Assembly: GCF_030345075.1 (NCBI RefSeq)
Contig: NZ_CP128361.1
Coordinates: forward strand, 2,728,001-2,792,000
Length of the DNA stretch: 64,000 nucleotides
From: Solwaraspora sp. WMMA2065
GTDB lineage: Bacteria; Actinomycetota; Actinomycetes; Mycobacteriales; Micromonosporaceae
Direction: 5' to 3'
Shown here: positions 54,346 to 62,531 of the stretch, piece by piece
Layout of the letters: each line of letters begins with the position of its first letter
Position numbering within the stretch: position 1 is the stretch's first letter
Translations under genes and position numbers: made by a program
Notes under the pieces: generated by a model
Told to the model about the DNA's origin: nothing
The model's database searches: none
Seen by the model: the letters and a program-made list of their open reading frames with translations, nothing else

Positions 54346-55356
54346 TCAGTCCCGGCTGCTGGAGAACGCGGCGTCGAACGCCGCCGTCGGGGCGTCGAAC
54401 GCCTGCTGACGGACGAACCGCAATGCCTCGGGGGCGCCGACCAACCGGTCCATCCCGGCGTCCTCCCACTCGACCGAGATCGGTCCGTCGTAGCCGATCG
54501 CGTTGAGTGCCCGGAAACAGTCCTCCCACGGCACGTCGCCGTGCCCGGTGGAGACGAAATCCCAGCCCCGCCGCAGATCCGCCCAGGGCAGGTGGGAGGC
54601 GAGCCGGCCGCGCCGACCGTCGCCGGTACGGACCTTCGCGTCCTTGCAGTCGACGTGGTAGATCCGGTCGGCGAACTCGAGGATGAAGTTGACCGGGTCC
54701 AGTTCCTGCCAGACGAAGTGCGACGGGTCCCAGTTGAGGCCAAACGCCGGGCGGTTGCCGATCGCCTCCAGGGTGCGGCGGGTCGTCCAGTAGTCGTAGG
54801 CGATCTCGCTTGGGTGCACCTCATGGGCGAACCTGACCCCGACCTCGTCGAACACGTCGAGGATCGGGTTGAACCGGTCCGCGAAGTCCTGGTAGCCGCG
54901 TTCGATCATCTCCGGCGGCACCGGTGGGAACATGGCCAGGGTGTGCCAGATCGACGAGCCGGTGAAGCCGATGACGGTGGAGACGCCGAGCTTCGCGGCG
55001 GCCCGGGCGGTGTCCTTGATCTCCTCGGCGGCGCGCTGACGGACGCCTTCGGGTTCCCCGTCGCCCCAGATCCGGGCGGGCAGGATCCCCTGGTGCCGCT
55101 CGTCGATCGGGTGGTCGCAGACCGCCTGGCCGACCAGGTGGTTGGAGATCGCGTACACCTTGAGGTTGTACTTGGCCAAGGTTTGCAGCTTGCGTTCGAC
55201 GTAGTCGTCCTCGGCCAGCGCCCGGTCCACCTCGAAGTGGTCGCCCCAGCAGGCGATCTCCAGGCCGTCGTAGCCCCACTCCGAGGTCAGCCGACACACT
55301 TCCTCGAACGGCAGGTCGGCCCACTGGCCGGTGAAGAGCGTGATGGGTCGCGCCAT
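54346..55356 (-). CDS. Sugar phosphate isomerase/epimerase-like TIM-barrel protein
   Basis: The 336-residue protein is a xylose-isomerase-like TIM barrel (AP_endonuc_2). Likely metal ligands are visible along the strands: [30 protein letters not shown] (Glu/His), [13 protein letters not shown] (Asp/His), [11 protein letters not shown] and [12 protein letters not shown] (Glu). The opening [16 protein letters not shown] is typical of a sugar-catabolism subgroup. The substrate is unknown; inosose or ketose derivatives are usual in this family. No catabolic partner gene is adjacent. Confidence 0.87.
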
Positions 55357-55710: not shown

Positions 55711-56616
55711 TCAGTAACCCCACTCGGCAAGCGGCTTCTCCAGCACCCGGTCCACCGCAGCCAACTGCTCCTGGCTGAGTTCCCGGTGGTACGCCGCCCC
55801 TCGACCGCTGTGGAACTCGTACCGGCGGAAGCCACGGTCGAACGAGGGCGACCAGTCGAGGCCGAGAAAGTCCAGCATCCGGGCTACTTCGTCGCTTGGT
55901 GCGACCAGCAGATCCTCGTACCGTACGTCCAGCCATTGGCCGGCCGGGTGGCTGGCCCGAGCCTCGGCGAACGCGGCCATCAGCATCTTCCAGCCGAGCG
56001 CGGCCAGCACCGGAAACGACCGGTCGGCTTCTTCCCACTCGGCCCGCAGATCGGCCGGCAGCGGGCCGAGGAACCAGTTGTCCGGCCCACGCCAGCCGTC
56101 CCACCAGCCCATCTGCAGCCACGAGTTGGCTACCGCACGTCCGTCGCGGACCACGTTGACCACCCGCAACTCCGGGTACGCGGCATGCAGCCAACCGGTG
56201 CGGGGCCAGCCCGTGACGTGTTGCAGCAGCACCTGGCAGCCCTGCCGCTTGACCCGGCGGTCGAAAAAGGCACGCAGCCGCTGGCCCACGTACGGGGTGA
56301 GGTCGTCAGCCCGCAGGTCCCGGCACGGCCTGGAGTAGCCGGCCATCACCTGCCGGTCAATCAGCCGATACGCCTCGGACGGCGCCACCCGCAGCCGGCC
56401 GCGTTCCAGCAGGCGACGGCTGTGCCCGAGCGAGGTCATGCCGGCCGGCCGGGGCGTCGAGCGGCGGTACAGCCGGCCGTTGCGACGACCGGCCAGGTTG
56501 AGCCGGGGCAGCTTGTCGTCCAGCCCGGACACGAAACCGACAGCCGGGTGCCGGGCCAGGATCTCCTGGACAAGGGTCGATCCGCACCGTCCGGTGCCCA
56601 CGACGACGGACAGCAT
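55711..56616 (-). CDS. PAPS-dependent sulfotransferase (1)
   Basis: The 301-residue enzyme begins MLSVVVGTGRCGSTLVQEIL, the 5'-phosphosulfate loop of sulfotransferases. VVNVVRDGRAVANSWLQMGWW near residue 155 is the 3'-phosphate-binding segment. It would transfer sulfate from PAPS to a hydroxyl or amine acceptor. It is the last gene of a minus-strand operon with a second sulfotransferase and a glycosyltransferase. The ATG at 56616 places the loop at the N-terminus, as usual; it lies 4 bp after the previous stop. Confidence 0.88.
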   Translation of the reverse strand: MLSVVVGTGRCGSTLVQEILARHPAVGFVSGLDDKLPRLNLAGRRNGRLYRRSTPRPAGMTSLGHSRRLLERGRLRVAPSEAYRLIDRQVMAGYSRPCRDLRADDLTPYVGQRLRAFFDRRVKRQGCQVLLQHVTGWPRTGWLHAAYPELRVVNVVRDGRAVANSWLQMGWWDGWRGPDNWFLGPLPADLRAEWEEADRSFPVLAALGWKMLMAAFAEARASHPAGQWLDVRYEDLLVAPSDEVARMLDFLGLDWSPSFDRGFRRYEFHSGRGAAYHRELSQEQLAAVDRVLEKPLAEWGY

Positions 56617-56620
56617 CGAG

Positions 56621-57742
56621 TCAGCCTTCCTTGCTCGGTGTCGTGGCCGGGACCGGCTCACCGACCGGCCCACCCTGGGCTCCGACCGGGGGCACCGCCC
56701 GGGCCGGGGGCGCTGCGGGTCGCCGTACCGGATAGCCGAAGCGGCGCAGCAGCGGCAGCGTCACTGCGGTGACCACCGCGAAGGACCGGCCGGGCAGCGC
56801 CCGGACCCATTCGGCGTCGTCGCTGACCGGGACCGCTCCGGTACGGTGCCGCGCCGGGTTGCCCGCCACCGAGTGGGTGGCGGCCAGGGTGAGCCGGCCT
56901 TCGGCGTCGATCGGCAGCCCGGCCGGATCCAGTCCGGCGAACAGCGCGATCCGGCGCAGCTGACCGGCCGGGTCGACAACCACGTCCTCGTAGCGGACCC
57001 GCAGGTAGCGGTCGGGTCCGGCGGCTTCGAAGAACCGCGCGGTGGCGGCGTTCCACACCCGCCACAGCAGAGCCGCCTTCCACACCGGCGGGCGGCTCAT
57101 CAGGTTGCGGTCCGCCGCGCCGTCCAGTCCGCGCCGACGGCGCCAGGAGAAGGCGGTGCCGCGCGGGTCCCGGACCAGGTGCAGCACCCGCAGGTCGATA
57201 CCGGGCAGGTCACGCAGCAACGCACCGTACGGTGGCAGCTTCGACGAGTCGACCACCACCACAGGTCCGTCGCCGCCGCGGCTCACCTGGCGGGCGACCG
57301 CCGGATAGACCGCGGCGATCGCGGCGTCGTCGGCGTGGTGCGGCACGGCCCGCCGTCCGGCACCGGCTCGCCTCAGCATGGCTGGCAGGTCCCGCATCCG
57401 CAGCCTGGCCCGCAGTCGTCGGGCGATGCCGGCCGCGTCCGGGCCAGTGGCCGAGGCCGGACCAGCAACAGCTGCCAGTTCGGCGGTGACCGCCCGCCAG
57501 ACCGGACAGGCGTCGAACGGCGCGCCGCAGCCGCAGGGACGGTTGTCGACCATCCCGCGCTGCCAGAGGTAGCGCAACTCGCCGGCGGCGAAACAGCCGT
57601 CCAGCTGCCCCAGGACGGTGGTGATCAGGGTGCTGCCGCTGCGACCGCTGCCGGCCAGGTAGAGCACCCGGACCGGAGGACTCGACGGGCCGGGTGTACC
57701 TGCGGCAGAGGATGTGCCTGCGGCGGAGGGCGTGCCGGTCAT
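56621..57742 (-). CDS. PAPS-dependent sulfotransferase (2)
   Basis: The 373-residue enzyme has a Ser/Thr/Pro-rich first 20 residues, then VRVLYLAGSGRSGSTLITTVL (phosphosulfate loop), a Cys-rich segment NRPCGCGAPFDACPVW characteristic of one bacterial sulfotransferase subgroup, and LRVLHLVRDPRGTAFSWRRRR (3'-phosphate binding). The final 35 residues are Pro/Ala-rich. Its ATG overlaps the stop of the glycosyltransferase gene by 4 bp (ATGA), so the two are translationally coupled. Confidence 0.88.
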   Translation of the reverse strand: MTGTPSAAGTSSAAGTPGPSSPPVRVLYLAGSGRSGSTLITTVLGQLDGCFAAGELRYLWQRGMVDNRPCGCGAPFDACPVWRAVTAELAAVAGPASATGPDAAGIARRLRARLRMRDLPAMLRRAGAGRRAVPHHADDAAIAAVYPAVARQVSRGGDGPVVVVDSSKLPPYGALLRDLPGIDLRVLHLVRDPRGTAFSWRRRRGLDGAADRNLMSRPPVWKAALLWRVWNAATARFFEAAGPDRYLRVRYEDVVVDPAGQLRRIALFAGLDPAGLPIDAEGRLTLAATHSVAGNPARHRTGAVPVSDDAEWVRALPGRSFAVVTAVTLPLLRRFGYPVRRPAAPPARAVPPVGAQGGPVGEPVPATTPSKEG

Positions 57743-58989
57743 CGTCGGGTTCCCGCCGGGGCGGTCAACGCCGCAGCCAGGTAGGCGTCGCGGAGCCGGT
57801 TCAGGTGCAGGTCGGGCGCGAAGTCACGGTCGATCTTGTCCCGGGCGGCCCGGCCCATCGCGTACGCCCGGTCGGGGTCGGCGACCAGCCTGCTCAGCGC
57901 GTCGCCGAGCGCCACCGGGTCGTCGGCCGGGACGGTCTCCCCGTCGAGACCGGGACTGATCAGCTCCGGCAGCCCACCGAGGTCGGTGCCGACCACCGGC
58001 ACGCCGCACGCGAACGCCTCGAGCACCGCCATTGGCTGGTTCTCATGCCACCGGGACGGCACCGCGACCGCCGCTGAGGACCTGATCAGGTCGTGCAGCC
58101 GGGACTTGTCCAGCCGGCCGTGGAACCGCACCCGACCGGGTGCCACCCGGTCGGCGAGGGCACGGACCGCAGGCAGGGCGGGGCCGTCGCCGGCCACGTG
58201 GACGGGCACCTGCCGGGGCAGTCGGGCGACCGCCTCGACCAGCGTGTCCACTCCCTTCTCGACGGAGATCCGGCCGGCGAAGACCACTCCCCCGCCCGGC
58301 GAGTCCTTGACCGCCACGGCGGCCGCGTCGACGAAGTGGTTGATCACCCGTAGCCGGTCCGGGTAGACGCCGGCCCGGCGCATCACGTCGGCGAGAAACC
58401 GGCTGGGACTGACGAACACCCCCACCGAACCATAGGCCCGTGACTGTCTGTGTATCCACGACTCCACAGCGAGTAGCGTACTGGCGGATGCCGATCCGTC
58501 CTTGCACCTGCGCCGCGCGGCGTGTAGCGGACCTCCATCGACGCACGCCGCACAGATCTTCCCCCGGTCCAGCATCTGGTAGCTGGGGCAGGCGAGCTTG
58601 TAGTCGTGCATGGTCAGCACGCACGGCACCCCGGCGTCGCGGGCGGCAGCGAGCACCGACGGAGACAGCTGGTGGTAGATGTTGTGCAGGTGGATCACGT
58701 CCGGCCCGAAGTCCTCGATCACCCGGGTCAGGCCGCGGCGGCTCGCCGGCGACCAGATCATCCGACCGGCGGCGGCCAGCCGGGGGCGCAGTCCGCGCGG
58801 CGCCGGCTCCAGCTCGACGTGCGGCGGGAAGTGCCGGGCGTACGGCAACGGCCCGTCGTTGTCCGGGTGGGTCATCCCGAAGTACGCCACCTCGTCCCCG
58901 GCCGCGCGCTGCAGATCGGCGAGGTCGATCAGATACCCCTCGGCGCCACCGCGACGGTACAGAAACTTGTTCACATGGAGGACACGCAT
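57739..58989 (-). CDS. GT4-family glycosyltransferase
   Basis: The 416-residue enzyme is a GT-B fold retaining glycosyltransferase. MRVLHVNKFLYRRGGAEGYLIDLA is the N-terminal Gly-rich donor/acceptor loop, and SRWHENQPMAVLEAFACGVPVVGTD carries the E-x7-E donor motif. An insertion with Cys residues (RGKICAACVDG and later RRRC) near residues 143-165 may bind a metal. It transfers a sugar from a nucleotide donor to an unknown acceptor at the cytoplasmic membrane face. It is the first gene of the minus arm of the sulfation cluster. Confidence 0.9.
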   Translation of the reverse strand: MRVLHVNKFLYRRGGAEGYLIDLADLQRAAGDEVAYFGMTHPDNDGPLPYARHFPPHVELEPAPRGLRPRLAAAGRMIWSPASRRGLTRVIEDFGPDVIHLHNIYHQLSPSVLAAARDAGVPCVLTMHDYKLACPSYQMLDRGKICAACVDGGPLHAARRRCKDGSASASTLLAVESWIHRQSRAYGSVGVFVSPSRFLADVMRRAGVYPDRLRVINHFVDAAAVAVKDSPGGGVVFAGRISVEKGVDTLVEAVARLPRQVPVHVAGDGPALPAVRALADRVAPGRVRFHGRLDKSRLHDLIRSSAAVAVPSRWHENQPMAVLEAFACGVPVVGTDLGGLPELISPGLDGETVPADDPVALGDALSRLVADPDRAYAMGRAARDKIDRDFAPDLHLNRLRDAYLAAALTAPAGTRR

Positions 58990-59249
58990 CAGTCCGGCCC
59001 GCTCGCTCGATACCGGGGTGTGGCCACCCGGTTATGGTGGCGCAGGGCTCCCGCCCTGGCTGCTGCCTCACGCTATGCACCCACGCCGGGTTAGTCCAGT
59101 ACCGAATCGCCAACTAGCTGATCGGGTGATCTTGTGTGGCTGACCAGCCTGCGTCCTGGCGTTTCGCCCCGATCCATGGGTAGCCTGACCGCGGCCCGAC
59201 CTCGCCCCAGCCTGGCCATCGCGGCTGGTGACGTGCCCGAGGAGGACCG

Positions 59250-60239
59250 GTGAACGACGACGAGCCTTCCACCCTGGCCTGGACCGCGCGGCGGATCGCC
59301 CGGCACGCCCGGTGGATCCGCACCGAAGGGCTCCGCCGCCTCGTCGAAGAGGACCGACTCAACCCGGTCGACCGGGCCACCACCGCCTGGGCCAAACTGC
59401 GCTGGCGGCATCGGCACGGCGTACCCCGTGGTCAAGCCGTTCCCGTCTACCTGGTCGGCCTGCAGCGGTCCGGCACCAACATGCTGGTCCGCGGGCTGGA
59501 GAACGCCGGCGAGGTCGAGGTCCGCAACGAAAGCGACCGGCGGGTCTTCCATCGTTTTCAACTCCGCGACGACGCGGTGCTGACCGCCGTGGTCAACCGC
59601 AGCCGACACGCGTACGTGCTGGTCAAACCGCTGTGTGACAGCCACCGGGTGGACGAACTGCTCGCCCTGCCCGGGATGGCGCCGGGACGGGCGGTCTGGG
59701 CGTGGCGCGACGTCGACGACCGGGCCCGCTCCGAGGTGGCCAAGTTCGGCGACGCCAACCTGCGGGCGCTCGCCGCCATCGCCGACGGCACCATCGGCCG
59801 CCGCTGGCAGGGCCAGCGCCTCGACGCGGACACCTACGAGCTGATTCACGGCTTCGACTACCGGCGGATGGACCGGCACACCGCCGCCGCCCTTTTCTGG
59901 TACGTCCGGAACACCCTCTACTTCCGGCTCGGCCTGGACCGCCGCGACGACGTGCTGCTCAGCTCGTACGACGCGTTGATCACCGACCCGGCCGGGCAGA
60001 TCAGCCGGCTGTGCGACTTCCTCGGGATCGCCTACCGCCCCGACCTGTCCGCGCACATCGCCCCCCGCACCCCCGCCCGCCAGCCGCTGCCGATCGACCC
60101 GGCGGTCCGTACGCTCTGCGACGAACTCACCGCCCGACTGACCGCCAGCGGCCGCCCACAGTCCCCCACCACCCCACCTCAACAAGCCGACACCGACCGG
60201 CGTGCTCCGGTGAGCGTGGAAAGGACCGACCATGGCTGA
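59250..60239 (+). CDS. PAPS-dependent sulfotransferase-like protein (3)
   Basis: The 329-residue protein has a basic N-terminal region of about 65 residues, then VPVYLVGLQRSGTNMLVRGLE (phosphosulfate loop). The 3'-phosphate segment is less canonical (VWAWRDVDDRARSEVAKFGD). A C-terminal DFLGI segment common in sulfotransferases is present (LCDFLGIAYRP). The GTG at 59250 follows GAGGAGG. It is first in the plus arm and overlaps the next gene by 8 bp. The deviation in the 3'-phosphate segment leaves some doubt about donor. Confidence 0.82.
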   Translation: MNDDEPSTLAWTARRIARHARWIRTEGLRRLVEEDRLNPVDRATTAWAKLRWRHRHGVPRGQAVPVYLVGLQRSGTNMLVRGLENAGEVEVRNESDRRVFHRFQLRDDAVLTAVVNRSRHAYVLVKPLCDSHRVDELLALPGMAPGRAVWAWRDVDDRARSEVAKFGDANLRALAAIADGTIGRRWQGQRLDADTYELIHGFDYRRMDRHTAAALFWYVRNTLYFRLGLDRRDDVLLSSYDALITDPAGQISRLCDFLGIAYRPDLSAHIAPRTPARQPLPIDPAVRTLCDELTARLTASGRPQSPTTPPQQADTDRRAPVSVERTDHG

Positions 60240-61038
60240 AGCCCCCGCGCCGGCCACCGCCGAAGTGGCGCAGTTGCCGACGGCGCCCATCTTCCTGGTG
60301 GGCTGCCAGCGCTCCGGCACCACCTTCCTGCGGCTGGTGCTCGACTCGCACTCCCGGATCTCCTGCGGACCGGAGACCCGGTTCCTGCCGGACCTGCGAC
60401 GCATCGTCGGCTCCGACTGGGAGCGGCTGGCCCGCTTCGGCTTCACCCGGGAGGACTGGCTGCGCCGCATCGCCGACTTCTTCGGCGGCGTGCACGCCGA
60501 CTACGCCGCCGGCCGGGGCAAGGCTCGGTGGGCCGACAAGACCCCGCTGTACGCGATCTCGCTCGACTTCGTCACCGAGGTCTTCCCGGACGCGCAGATC
60601 GTGCACGTCATCCGGGACGGCCGCGACGTGGTGGTCTCGCACCGCAAGCGGTTCGGGTACTGGTCGGCGGTGAAATGCGTGGTCAAGTGGCCGCGCTACA
60701 TTCGTACCGCCCGCGCGATGGGCGCCACCCTGCCAGCTGACCGCTACCACGAACTGCGCTACGAGGACGCGGTACGGGAGCCGGAGAAGTCGATGCGCGC
60801 GCTGTTCGAGTTCCTCGGCGAACCGTGGGAGGAAGGCGTGCTCGACTACGTCGACAAACCGCATGACGTGGCCGGAAAGTACACCAGTGAGGCGGACCGA
60901 CGCCGCGCCTCCGCCGGCACCGACTCGGCCATCTACCGGTCCCGCGTCGGCAGCTACCGCCGGGAGCTGGACCCGTTCCTGCGGCTGCTCGTCGCGGCCT
61001 TCTCCGGTCGGATGCTGCGCGAGCTGGGTTACCGATGA
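60232..61038 (+). CDS. PAPS-dependent sulfotransferase (4)
   Basis: The 268-residue enzyme has FLVGCQRSGTTFLRLVLDSH (phosphosulfate loop) near residue 24, DKTPLYAISL, and IVHVIRDGRDVVVSHRKRFGYW (3'-phosphate binding). FEFLGEPWEEGVLDYV is a typical C-terminal segment. This is the most canonical of the four. It overlaps its upstream neighbour by 8 bp and its downstream neighbour by 4 bp, indicating strict co-expression. Confidence 0.9.
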   Translation: MAEAPAPATAEVAQLPTAPIFLVGCQRSGTTFLRLVLDSHSRISCGPETRFLPDLRRIVGSDWERLARFGFTREDWLRRIADFFGGVHADYAAGRGKARWADKTPLYAISLDFVTEVFPDAQIVHVIRDGRDVVVSHRKRFGYWSAVKCVVKWPRYIRTARAMGATLPADRYHELRYEDAVREPEKSMRALFEFLGEPWEEGVLDYVDKPHDVAGKYTSEADRRRASAGTDSAIYRSRVGSYRRELDPFLRLLVAAFSGRMLRELGYR

Positions 61039-62531
61039 ACACTGCGACCCGGCCCGCCACTGCGACCCGGCCGGCCACTGCGGCCCGCCGCTGCGTGGCG
61101 GCGGCGCTCGGCGGGCTGCTGCTGCTGGCCGGCTGCACCAGCGCCGACGAGGACACCACCCCGCCACCGGTGCCGCCGACCGGCGCGCCGCTGCCGAGCC
61201 TGCCGCCGTACCCCGAGGACACCCACCCGTTCGGCGCGCACTGGGACTGGAACCGGTACGACGAGTTCCTCCCGTACCTGCGCAAACTGTCCGGGTCTGC
61301 CACCTACCACGAGATCAGCTGGTGCAGCATCGAGCCGACCCAGGGTCAGCAGGACTGGTCGGCACTGGACCAGATCGCCCAGCGCAGCCGGGAACTCGGC
61401 ATCGTGCTGAACATCAAGATCCGGACCGAGATGTGCTGGGCCACCGGTGGGACCCCGGAGCACGTCCGCGGCCAGGCCAACAAGACCGAGTCGACGATGC
61501 CGCTGGACATGGCCGCCTACCGGCAGTTCGTCGGTGACGTGGTCCGCCGTTACACGCCGTACGGCGTCCGTCAGTACGCGATCGAGAACGAGGTTAACGC
61601 TCCGCAGTACTGGCGCGGCACCCCCGAGGAGTACGTCGAGCTGGTCACCGTCGCCGCCGAGGCGGTGCACGCCGCGAACCCGGAGGCGGTGGTCGTCGAC
61701 TCCGGCATCAGCAGTGTCGCGTACGGCTTCGGGGTGGTCGACCGGCTGGTCCAAGCCGGCCGCGACGACGAGGCGATCGCCGCCTACAACGCGTACTTCA
61801 AGCGGCGGATCGGCACCCGGGGCCGCAAGATCCCCGAGGTGGACACGATCGAGACGCTACGGACCGCGCTCGACAACGAGACCAACGTACGCAACGTCGC
61901 CTTCCTGGCCGCCACCGAGCAACTGATTGACGACGGCGTGGTGCAGCTGCGTCAGGTGCACTACTACGAACACTTCGACGGCGTACCGGCGCTGCTGGAC
62001 TACCTGGCGGCGGAGAATCCGGCCGACGTGCCGATCGAAGCGTGGGAGGTCGGGCAGTTCTGGCGCGACGGTGACGGTGACGACGTCAGCCGGGCCGAGG
62101 AGGTCGTCAAGGTCTCCACCATGCTGCTGGCCGGCGGTATCCGGCAGGTGATGTGGCTGCCGCTGGGCTACAACCCGAACAACCGGGCCGGCAGCGAGGT
62201 CCGCTACGGCCTGCTCGACCCGGACGGTACGGAACGTGAGGCCGGCCGGATGTTCGAGAGCCTGGCGGTGGCGGCGCGTGGCGCCATGGTCACCCCGGTC
62301 CGCCGGGACGGCCTGATCGGGGTGGCGTTCCAGCAGGGCGAGGAGAGCACCCTGGTCGTCTGGTCCGGCGAGATCAACGACGCGGTACGGGTGTCCGCGG
62401 TGCCCAGCCTGCACGCCGGGCCGGCCGGTGCCTCGCCGGCCAAGACGGCGGCCGAGGTGACCGTCACCGACCGGCCGGTGCTGTTGCGCGCCACCGGCAC
62501 CCCGGAGTCGATCCTCGCCGACGTCGACTGA
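61035..62531 (+). CDS. Lipoprotein of the GH-A clan (cellulase/beta-glycosidase-like)
   Basis: The 498-residue protein has a signal peptide with lipobox LLLAGC (Cys about 35) and a Pro-rich linker. The catalytic barrel follows: HWDWNRYDEFLPYLRKLSGS, IKIRTEMCWATGG, then QYAIENEVNAPQYW whose NE is the acid/base Glu pattern of clan GH-A, and IEAWEVGQFWRDGD near the nucleophile position. A C-terminal beta-domain follows (residues about 400-498). It acts on the outer membrane face on an unknown glycoside. Translationally coupled (ATGA) to a sulfotransferase, so its substrate is probably the sulfated glycan. Confidence 0.82.
   Translation: MNTATRPATATRPATAARRCVAAALGGLLLLAGCTSADEDTTPPPVPPTGAPLPSLPPYPEDTHPFGAHWDWNRYDEFLPYLRKLSGSATYHEISWCSIEPTQGQQDWSALDQIAQRSRELGIVLNIKIRTEMCWATGGTPEHVRGQANKTESTMPLDMAAYRQFVGDVVRRYTPYGVRQYAIENEVNAPQYWRGTPEEYVELVTVAAEAVHAANPEAVVVDSGISSVAYGFGVVDRLVQAGRDDEAIAAYNAYFKRRIGTRGRKIPEVDTIETLRTALDNETNVRNVAFLAATEQLIDDGVVQLRQVHYYEHFDGVPALLDYLAAENPADVPIEAWEVGQFWRDGDGDDVSRAEEVVKVSTMLLAGGIRQVMWLPLGYNPNNRAGSEVRYGLLDPDGTEREAGRMFESLAVAARGAMVTPVRRDGLIGVAFQQGEESTLVVWSGEINDAVRVSAVPSLHAGPAGASPAKTAAEVTVTDRPVLLRATGTPESILADVD

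Follow-up and report, generated by a model that had tools for sequence, protein, structure and literature searches.

Bacterial sulfated polysaccharides are still described as essentially cyanobacterial, with actinomycetes raised as a possibility only (PMC8205485, PMC13390465). The closest described systems are the synechan cluster xss of Synechocystis sp. PCC 6803 and wps-1 of Actinoplanes missouriensis. The xss cluster combines Wzx, Wzy and a polysaccharide co-polymerase (PCP) with two sulfotransferases, eight glycosyltransferases and its own regulators XssQ/R/S in a cyanobacterial host; the excerpted source names no glycosidase for it, and its product, synechan, is shown to be sulfated (PMC8205485). 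The wps-1 cluster encodes Wzx, Wzy, Wzz, two sulfotransferases (one of the heparan type), a GH26 glycoside hydrolase, glycosyltransferases of families GT2 and GT26, a methyltransferase and kinase-like genes; sulfation of its product is a prediction, and its loss deforms sporangia (PMC13390465). A hydrolase with the clan GH-A fold, PslG, belongs to the psl polysaccharide locus of Pseudomonas aeruginosa (PMC9075953, PMC11912335). Here we describe a sulfotransferase-rich locus of Solwaraspora sp. WMMA2065, a member of the same family as A. missouriensis (Micromonosporaceae), that shares Wzx, Wzy, Wzz/PCP and sulfotransferases with xss and wps-1 and differs from them in having five sulfotransferases and two GT4 glycosyltransferases, the highest ratio of the former to the latter among these three loci. 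Part of it lies in the window, the whole stretch of 64,000 nucleotides that was analysed (positions 2728001-2792000 of the single 6,743,220-base contig that is the whole genome). With a probability of roughly 0.78, we read it as an eleven-gene, two-module Wzx/Wzy-dependent locus for a sulfated exopolysaccharide, comprising five sulfotransferases, two glycosyltransferases and a PslG-like hydrolase, and its six window genes are best explained as most of the repeat-unit half.

These six genes form two divergent arms with predicted start codons throughout. On the reverse strand lie the Sulfotransfer_3 sulfotransferases ST1 (55711..56616, 301 aa) and, 4 bp upstream of it, ST2 (56621..57742, 373 aa), followed by a GT4-family glycosyltransferase (57739..58989, 416 aa) that overlaps ST2 by 4 bp. 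The forward arm holds the divergent sulfotransferase ST3 (59250..60239, 329 aa, GTG start), the sulfotransferase ST4 (60232..61038, 268 aa, 8-bp overlap with ST3) and the glycoside hydrolase GH (61035..62531, 498 aa, 4-bp overlap with ST4), a PslG-like, GH39-type hydrolase of clan GH-A and probable lipoprotein. The re-derived coordinates, strands, gap and overlaps agree with the preliminary description, as does its count of four sulfotransferase-family genes in the window: ST1 to ST4 score 81, 52, 36 and 139 bits against a Sulfotransfer_3 cut-off of 27 (Pfam). The GT4 enzyme is clear by Pfam and matched generic models only in NCBIfam, where a search of the six block proteins gave no name for any of them and the NoeE matches of ST1 and ST4 fell far under the cut-off.

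The locus runs past the window end, and the window shows 6 of at least 11 genes (28 kb beyond its end were examined). A second module begins 5.9 kb past GH, with all five genes on the minus strand (G000:C1:2796389-2803029). In window-equivalent positions, it consists of a fifth sulfotransferase, ST5 (68389-69240; Sulfotransfer, 61.9 bits), Wzx (69237-70754; Polysacc_synt, 88.9 bits, cut-off 28.2; 4-bp overlap with ST5), Wzz (70894-72015; Wzz, 36.8 bits, cut-off 25.5), Wzy (72027-73514; Wzy_C, 78 bits, cut-off 31.7) and a second GT4-family glycosyltransferase, GTb (73776-75029; GT4, 92 bits). Flippase, polymerase-type and chain-length determinant (Wzz/PCP) domains are therefore all present by Pfam. 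The earlier remarks that the window holds a single GT4 and neither polymerase nor flippase are literally true of the window but reflect its edge, as Wzx, Wzy and GTb lie just outside, and the sulfotransferase total for the locus is corrected to five.

The two modules are tied together by their distribution. GH, ST3 and Wzy, each searched separately in a sample of 151 Micromonosporaceae genomes from 44 genera, occurred in the identical 22 genomes (about 1 in 7, from 10 of the 44 genera) and were missing from the same 129; the resulting GH versus ST3 table (22/0/0/129) gives a Fisher p of 6e-27 with shared ancestry ignored. GH was found in all seven genomes examined from the window's own genus. 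Orthologues of ST1, ST2 and ST4 were likewise present in 22/22 bearers, and the block ST1-ST2-GT4 (reverse) / ST3-ST4-GH (forward) was intact in every one, with order and strands kept. A named collection contributed 28 records with the same block order, spanning Micromonospora, Phytohabitans, Jidongwangia, Actinoplanes, Mangrovihabitans and Virgisporangium, among which only the 5.6-kb contig L074 is without ST1. Since eight genomes are common to both sets, an unchanging block order is seen in 42 distinct genomes; far from being scattered, the homologues of the six genes co-occur side by side. When each start codon is chosen to come as close as possible to a 4-bp overlap, a GH start at -4 relative to ST4 is possible in 22/22 bearers, the ST3/ST4 junction lies at -8 in 17 and at -4 in 4 (21/22), and the GT4/ST2 junction lies at -4 in 19/22. 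Purifying selection acts on all eleven genes (dN/dS 0.04-0.25).

Linkage between the modules is looser. ST5-Wzx lies within 20 kb of the block in 20 of the 22 bearers; the stretches examined also hold Wzz and Wzy in 19 bearers and GTb in 17, the stretch for G092 ending inside Wzx. Wzy is about 40 kb off in G020 and on another contig in G077, and since it is kept in both, a genome retains both modules even where they have come apart. Beyond the family, a class-wide search of 247 genomes for ST3 found none outside Micromonosporaceae, and an order-wide sample (n=250) yielded an ST3 homologue in one genome of another family, G268. There, a compact single-strand run carries genes like ST3, Wzx, Wzy, ST1 and Wzz, with Wzx and Wzz called by position and sequence character only, and homologues of GT4 and GTb form an adjacent pair some 17 kb off on the same contig (stretches L094:13047-19209 and L095:16465-18920). 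On a 3.3-kb contig of an Actinomycetota metagenome-assembled genome (L080), Wzz and Wzy lie next to homologues of GH and ST3. The sulfotransferases of the window and the Wzx/Wzy genes outside it thus appear as one unit elsewhere, and co-occurrence, block order and the G268 run together tie the sulfotransferase genes to the Wzx/Wzy set.

These patterns bear on what the locus makes. The six-gene block might instead make or decorate a sulfated glycolipid (compare the sulfolipids of mycobacteria) or small secondary metabolite, with the Wzx/Wzy module being an unrelated neighbour. Sulfotransferases of the same Pfam family do serve sulfolipid and natural-product pathways, only one glycosyltransferase lies inside the block, and variable genes separate the two modules. 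However, Wzy occurs in 22/22 bearers and 0/129 other genomes, including the unlinked cases, the sulfotransferase homologues of G268 sit inside a Wzx-Wzy-Wzz run, and no recurring lipid-synthesis genes (polyketide synthase, acyltransferase) were seen in the block neighbourhoods compared, which makes this alternative highly improbable. The preliminary description had proposed a pathway for a multiply sulfated glycolipid or exopolysaccharide; a multiply sulfated surface glycan is supported, and an exopolysaccharide is favoured over a glycolipid because specific Wzy, Wzx and Wzz genes go with the block. That the product is a polysaccharide and sulfated is our inference, as are the number of its sulfates and the role of the glycosidase.

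Under the favoured exopolysaccharide reading, a housekeeping phosphoglycosyltransferase encoded elsewhere would load the first sugar on undecaprenyl phosphate, and the two GT4 enzymes would extend the lipid-linked sugar. The cytoplasmic ST1-ST5, using 3'-phosphoadenosine-5'-phosphosulfate (PAPS), would sulfate the lipid-linked repeat unit, at least some of them differing in target position or sugar. Wzx would then flip the sulfated unit, Wzy would polymerise it under Wzz length control, and the membrane-anchored PslG-like glycosidase, facing outward, might cut nascent or stalled chains. The genome could supply what the locus lacks: it encodes five Bac_transf (PF02397) phosphoglycosyltransferases, none near the locus, and one ATP-sulfurylase/APS-kinase fusion (APS, adenosine-5'-phosphosulfate), which can make PAPS, at 3.856 Mb of G000:C1, in line with the earlier observation that the window holds no PAPS-synthesis gene. 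This fusion is the genome's only APS-kinase gene (L082:9012-11661, G000:C1:3855012-3857661) and adjoins an ST5-like sulfotransferase with 38% identity; wps-1 of A. missouriensis has an APS-kinase gene as its neighbour (PMC13390465). The two arms may be under joint control from the 260-bp divergent intergenic region (58990..59249), which probably contains divergent promoters; an alignment of 15 genomes reveals conserved blocks (A)CGCTATGCA (~59070-59079), GTCCAG (59094-59099) and TAGCCT (59181-59186), the last placed like a -10 element ahead of ST3.

Several points weigh against the exopolysaccharide reading. Neither a PAPS-synthesis gene nor an initiating transferase gene is linked to the locus, so that initiation and PAPS would come from elsewhere in the genome. 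The Wzy_C domain is also found in ligases, and sequence cannot separate ligase from polymerase activity. The length of the inter-module stretch ranges between 9 bp and 12 kb across relatives, and no sulfated polymer from the bearer strains was reported in the literature searched. Finally, the ratio of five sulfotransferases to two linked glycosyltransferases is unusual: some of the former could serve elsewhere, or there must be additional glycosyltransferases without linkage to the locus. Taken at face value, the same ratio might, tentatively, indicate a densely sulfated heparin- or carrageenan-like polymer, in which two linked glycosyltransferases would build a very short repeat, the five sulfotransferases would differ in target position and a PslG-like enzyme would trim the polymer during export; if true, no molecule of this type is known from actinomycetes.

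The concentration of sulfotransferases exceeds chance. Of the roughly 11 sulfotransferase genes in this 6.74-Mb genome, five share a stretch of some 14 kb, against an expectation of 0.023; an approximate Poisson calculation puts the chance of four further sulfotransferases beside a first at about 1e-8. ST1-ST5 are mutually very different, with local matches only, and each has a 5' PAPS-loop motif (GTGRCGS, GSGRSGS, GLQRSGT, GCQRSGT and GGQRCGT, respectively) and a 3' motif of the RD....S type. It is conceivable that several of these proteins, as inactive or moonlighting paralogues, do not transfer sulfate to a glycan, for which the weak Pfam match of ST3 (36 bits) and the fast evolution of ST2 (dN/dS ~0.25, the highest rate) might be cited. 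Yet both PAPS-contact motifs are retained in all five families across 20-22 orthologues, most strictly in ST1, ST3, ST4 and ST5 and least so in ST2: ST1 keeps GTGRCGS and RDGRAV..S (dN/dS 0.07-0.10), ST3 GLQRSGTNM and RDV.DRARSEV, ST4 GCQRSGTT and IRDGRDVVVSH, and even ST2 keeps GSGRSGSTL and VRDPR...SW in most orthologues. ST3, moreover, is among the best-kept parts of the locus even outside Micromonosporaceae, and we regard this possibility as improbable. ST5 may be of the heparan type, like one of the wps-1 sulfotransferases.

GH was more difficult to classify. It reached no cut-off in Pfam or NCBIfam (GH42, 18.3 bits against 21; GH39, PF01229, 12.1 bits against 26), and the earlier call of a GH-A lipoprotein had been made on sequence feel. 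The predicted fold does place it in clan GH-A. An AlphaFold2 model built on 20 sequences (mean pLDDT 80.7, residues 1-61 disordered) had PslG of P. aeruginosa as its best structural match (Foldseek E 1.8e-20; VIA-align Z 26.7, 16% identity over 351 residues), followed by a family 39 hydrolase at Z 25.8, less than one Z unit below. Likewise, a profile search against sequences of solved structures put GH39 xylosidases and PslG on top (E 2e-4 to 5e-4), and its alignment sets E186 of GH on the Asn-Glu motif of PslG. E186 (in ENEVN) and E338 (in AWEVG, on strand 334-339) are invariant among the orthologues and both putatively catalytic. The model thus suggests a PslG-like fold rather than GH39 membership by the Pfam measure. 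A probable lipobox (LAGC34), with the cysteine kept in most orthologues, is consistent with membrane anchoring. PslG, whose gene belongs to the psl exopolysaccharide cluster, is found mainly at the inner membrane (PMC9075953) and is a retaining endo-beta-glucosidase (PMC11912335). The membrane-facing glycosidase for trimming or recycling a surface glycan, as first proposed, is refined to a putative PslG-like role. The two systems also differ: GH is the probable lipoprotein of a Gram-positive organism and shares few residues with PslG, and the Psl polysaccharide is not known to be sulfated.

Given the shared family, the locus might be the counterpart of wps-1 and make a sulfated spore or sporangium matrix polysaccharide. 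The common Wzx, Wzy, Wzz, sulfotransferases and glycoside hydrolase, the sporangial phenotype of wps-1 loss (PMC13390465) and the presence of Phytohabitans, Actinoplanes and Virgisporangium among the bearers would fit. Going by the description of its gene content, however, wps-1 has GT2, GT26 and GH26 where our locus has two GT4 and a GH39-type hydrolase in a divergent two-arm block, and our core lacks its methyltransferase and kinase-like genes. Most named bearers, furthermore, are Micromonospora, which are not known to form sporangia, and we consider such a counterpart rather unlikely. Identity with wps-1 was rejected because of the gene content, as the set of GT2, GT26, GH26, methyltransferase and kinase-like genes set out in the published description was not encountered in the core. 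Separately, the genome carries a second Wzz-/Wzy-/Wzx-like locus (L085:4549-14334, G000:C1:6477549-6487334) followed by a sulfotransferase 43% identical to ST5, with GT2 and Alg14-like genes as well; this locus may be a relative of wps-1.

Other comparisons are more distant. Sulfated capsular polysaccharides with proposed clusters come, according to the excerpted reports, from the marine bacteria Vibrio sp. KMM 8419 and Cobetia marina KMM 1449, which are Gammaproteobacteria, unlike the actinomycete studied here (PMC11641403, PMC11766843), and the paper on the imp cluster leaves sulfotransferases unmentioned (PMC12691653). The open-access literature searched contained no description of our locus, no characterised sulfated-metabolite locus of the same make-up and nothing relevant on Micromonospora sulfated polysaccharides or actinobacterial sulfated exopolysaccharide clusters, although descriptions may exist beyond it. 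Heavily sulfated surface polymers are familiar from animals and algae and still unproven in this bacterial group, for which a locus found in 42 genomes across one actinomycete family, with more sulfotransferases than either xss or wps-1, offers a strong and directly testable case. If the product is multiply sulfated, it would represent a so far unnoticed surface trait of Micromonospora and relatives, and the five bacterial sulfotransferases, maybe differing in target position, could be useful for heparin-like materials.

The surroundings of the locus are variable. The genes seen between the modules (AbiEi-like, XRE-like, SDR, TetR, peptidases, thioredoxin-like lipoproteins) were rejected as hidden core parts, being variable and unshared across relatives. 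Near-identical C-terminal domains (PTGNYS...RYEYHSSGRGATFTGRHYVVL) at window positions 63578-64387 and window-equivalent positions 66769-67155 flank an SDR/TetR insert that occurs in only 3/22 bearer genomes, and this pair is probably a duplication around an insertion. On the other side of the block, a xylose-isomerase-like TIM-barrel protein (window 54346-55356, reverse strand) is near ST1 in 10/22 bearer genomes; it is possibly a sugar-modifying partner or merely shares the neighbourhood. Directly after the Wzy module lies an ebo-type cluster (window-equivalent 75054-83399, G000:C1:2803054-2811399) with genes for polyprenyl synthase, phosphodiesterase, EboE-like, TatD-like, EboA-like, sugar-isomerase-like, UbiA-like and inositol-phosphate-synthase-like proteins, several of these names being given by recognition only. 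Its TatD-like gene is present in 22/22 bearers versus 73/129 non-bearers (p 2e-5, with phylogeny uncorrected); in 13/22 bearers, including G020 and G077, where Wzy has moved, it is close to the Wzy module or the block. A lipid carrier or export role shared between the ebo-type cluster and the locus is possible.

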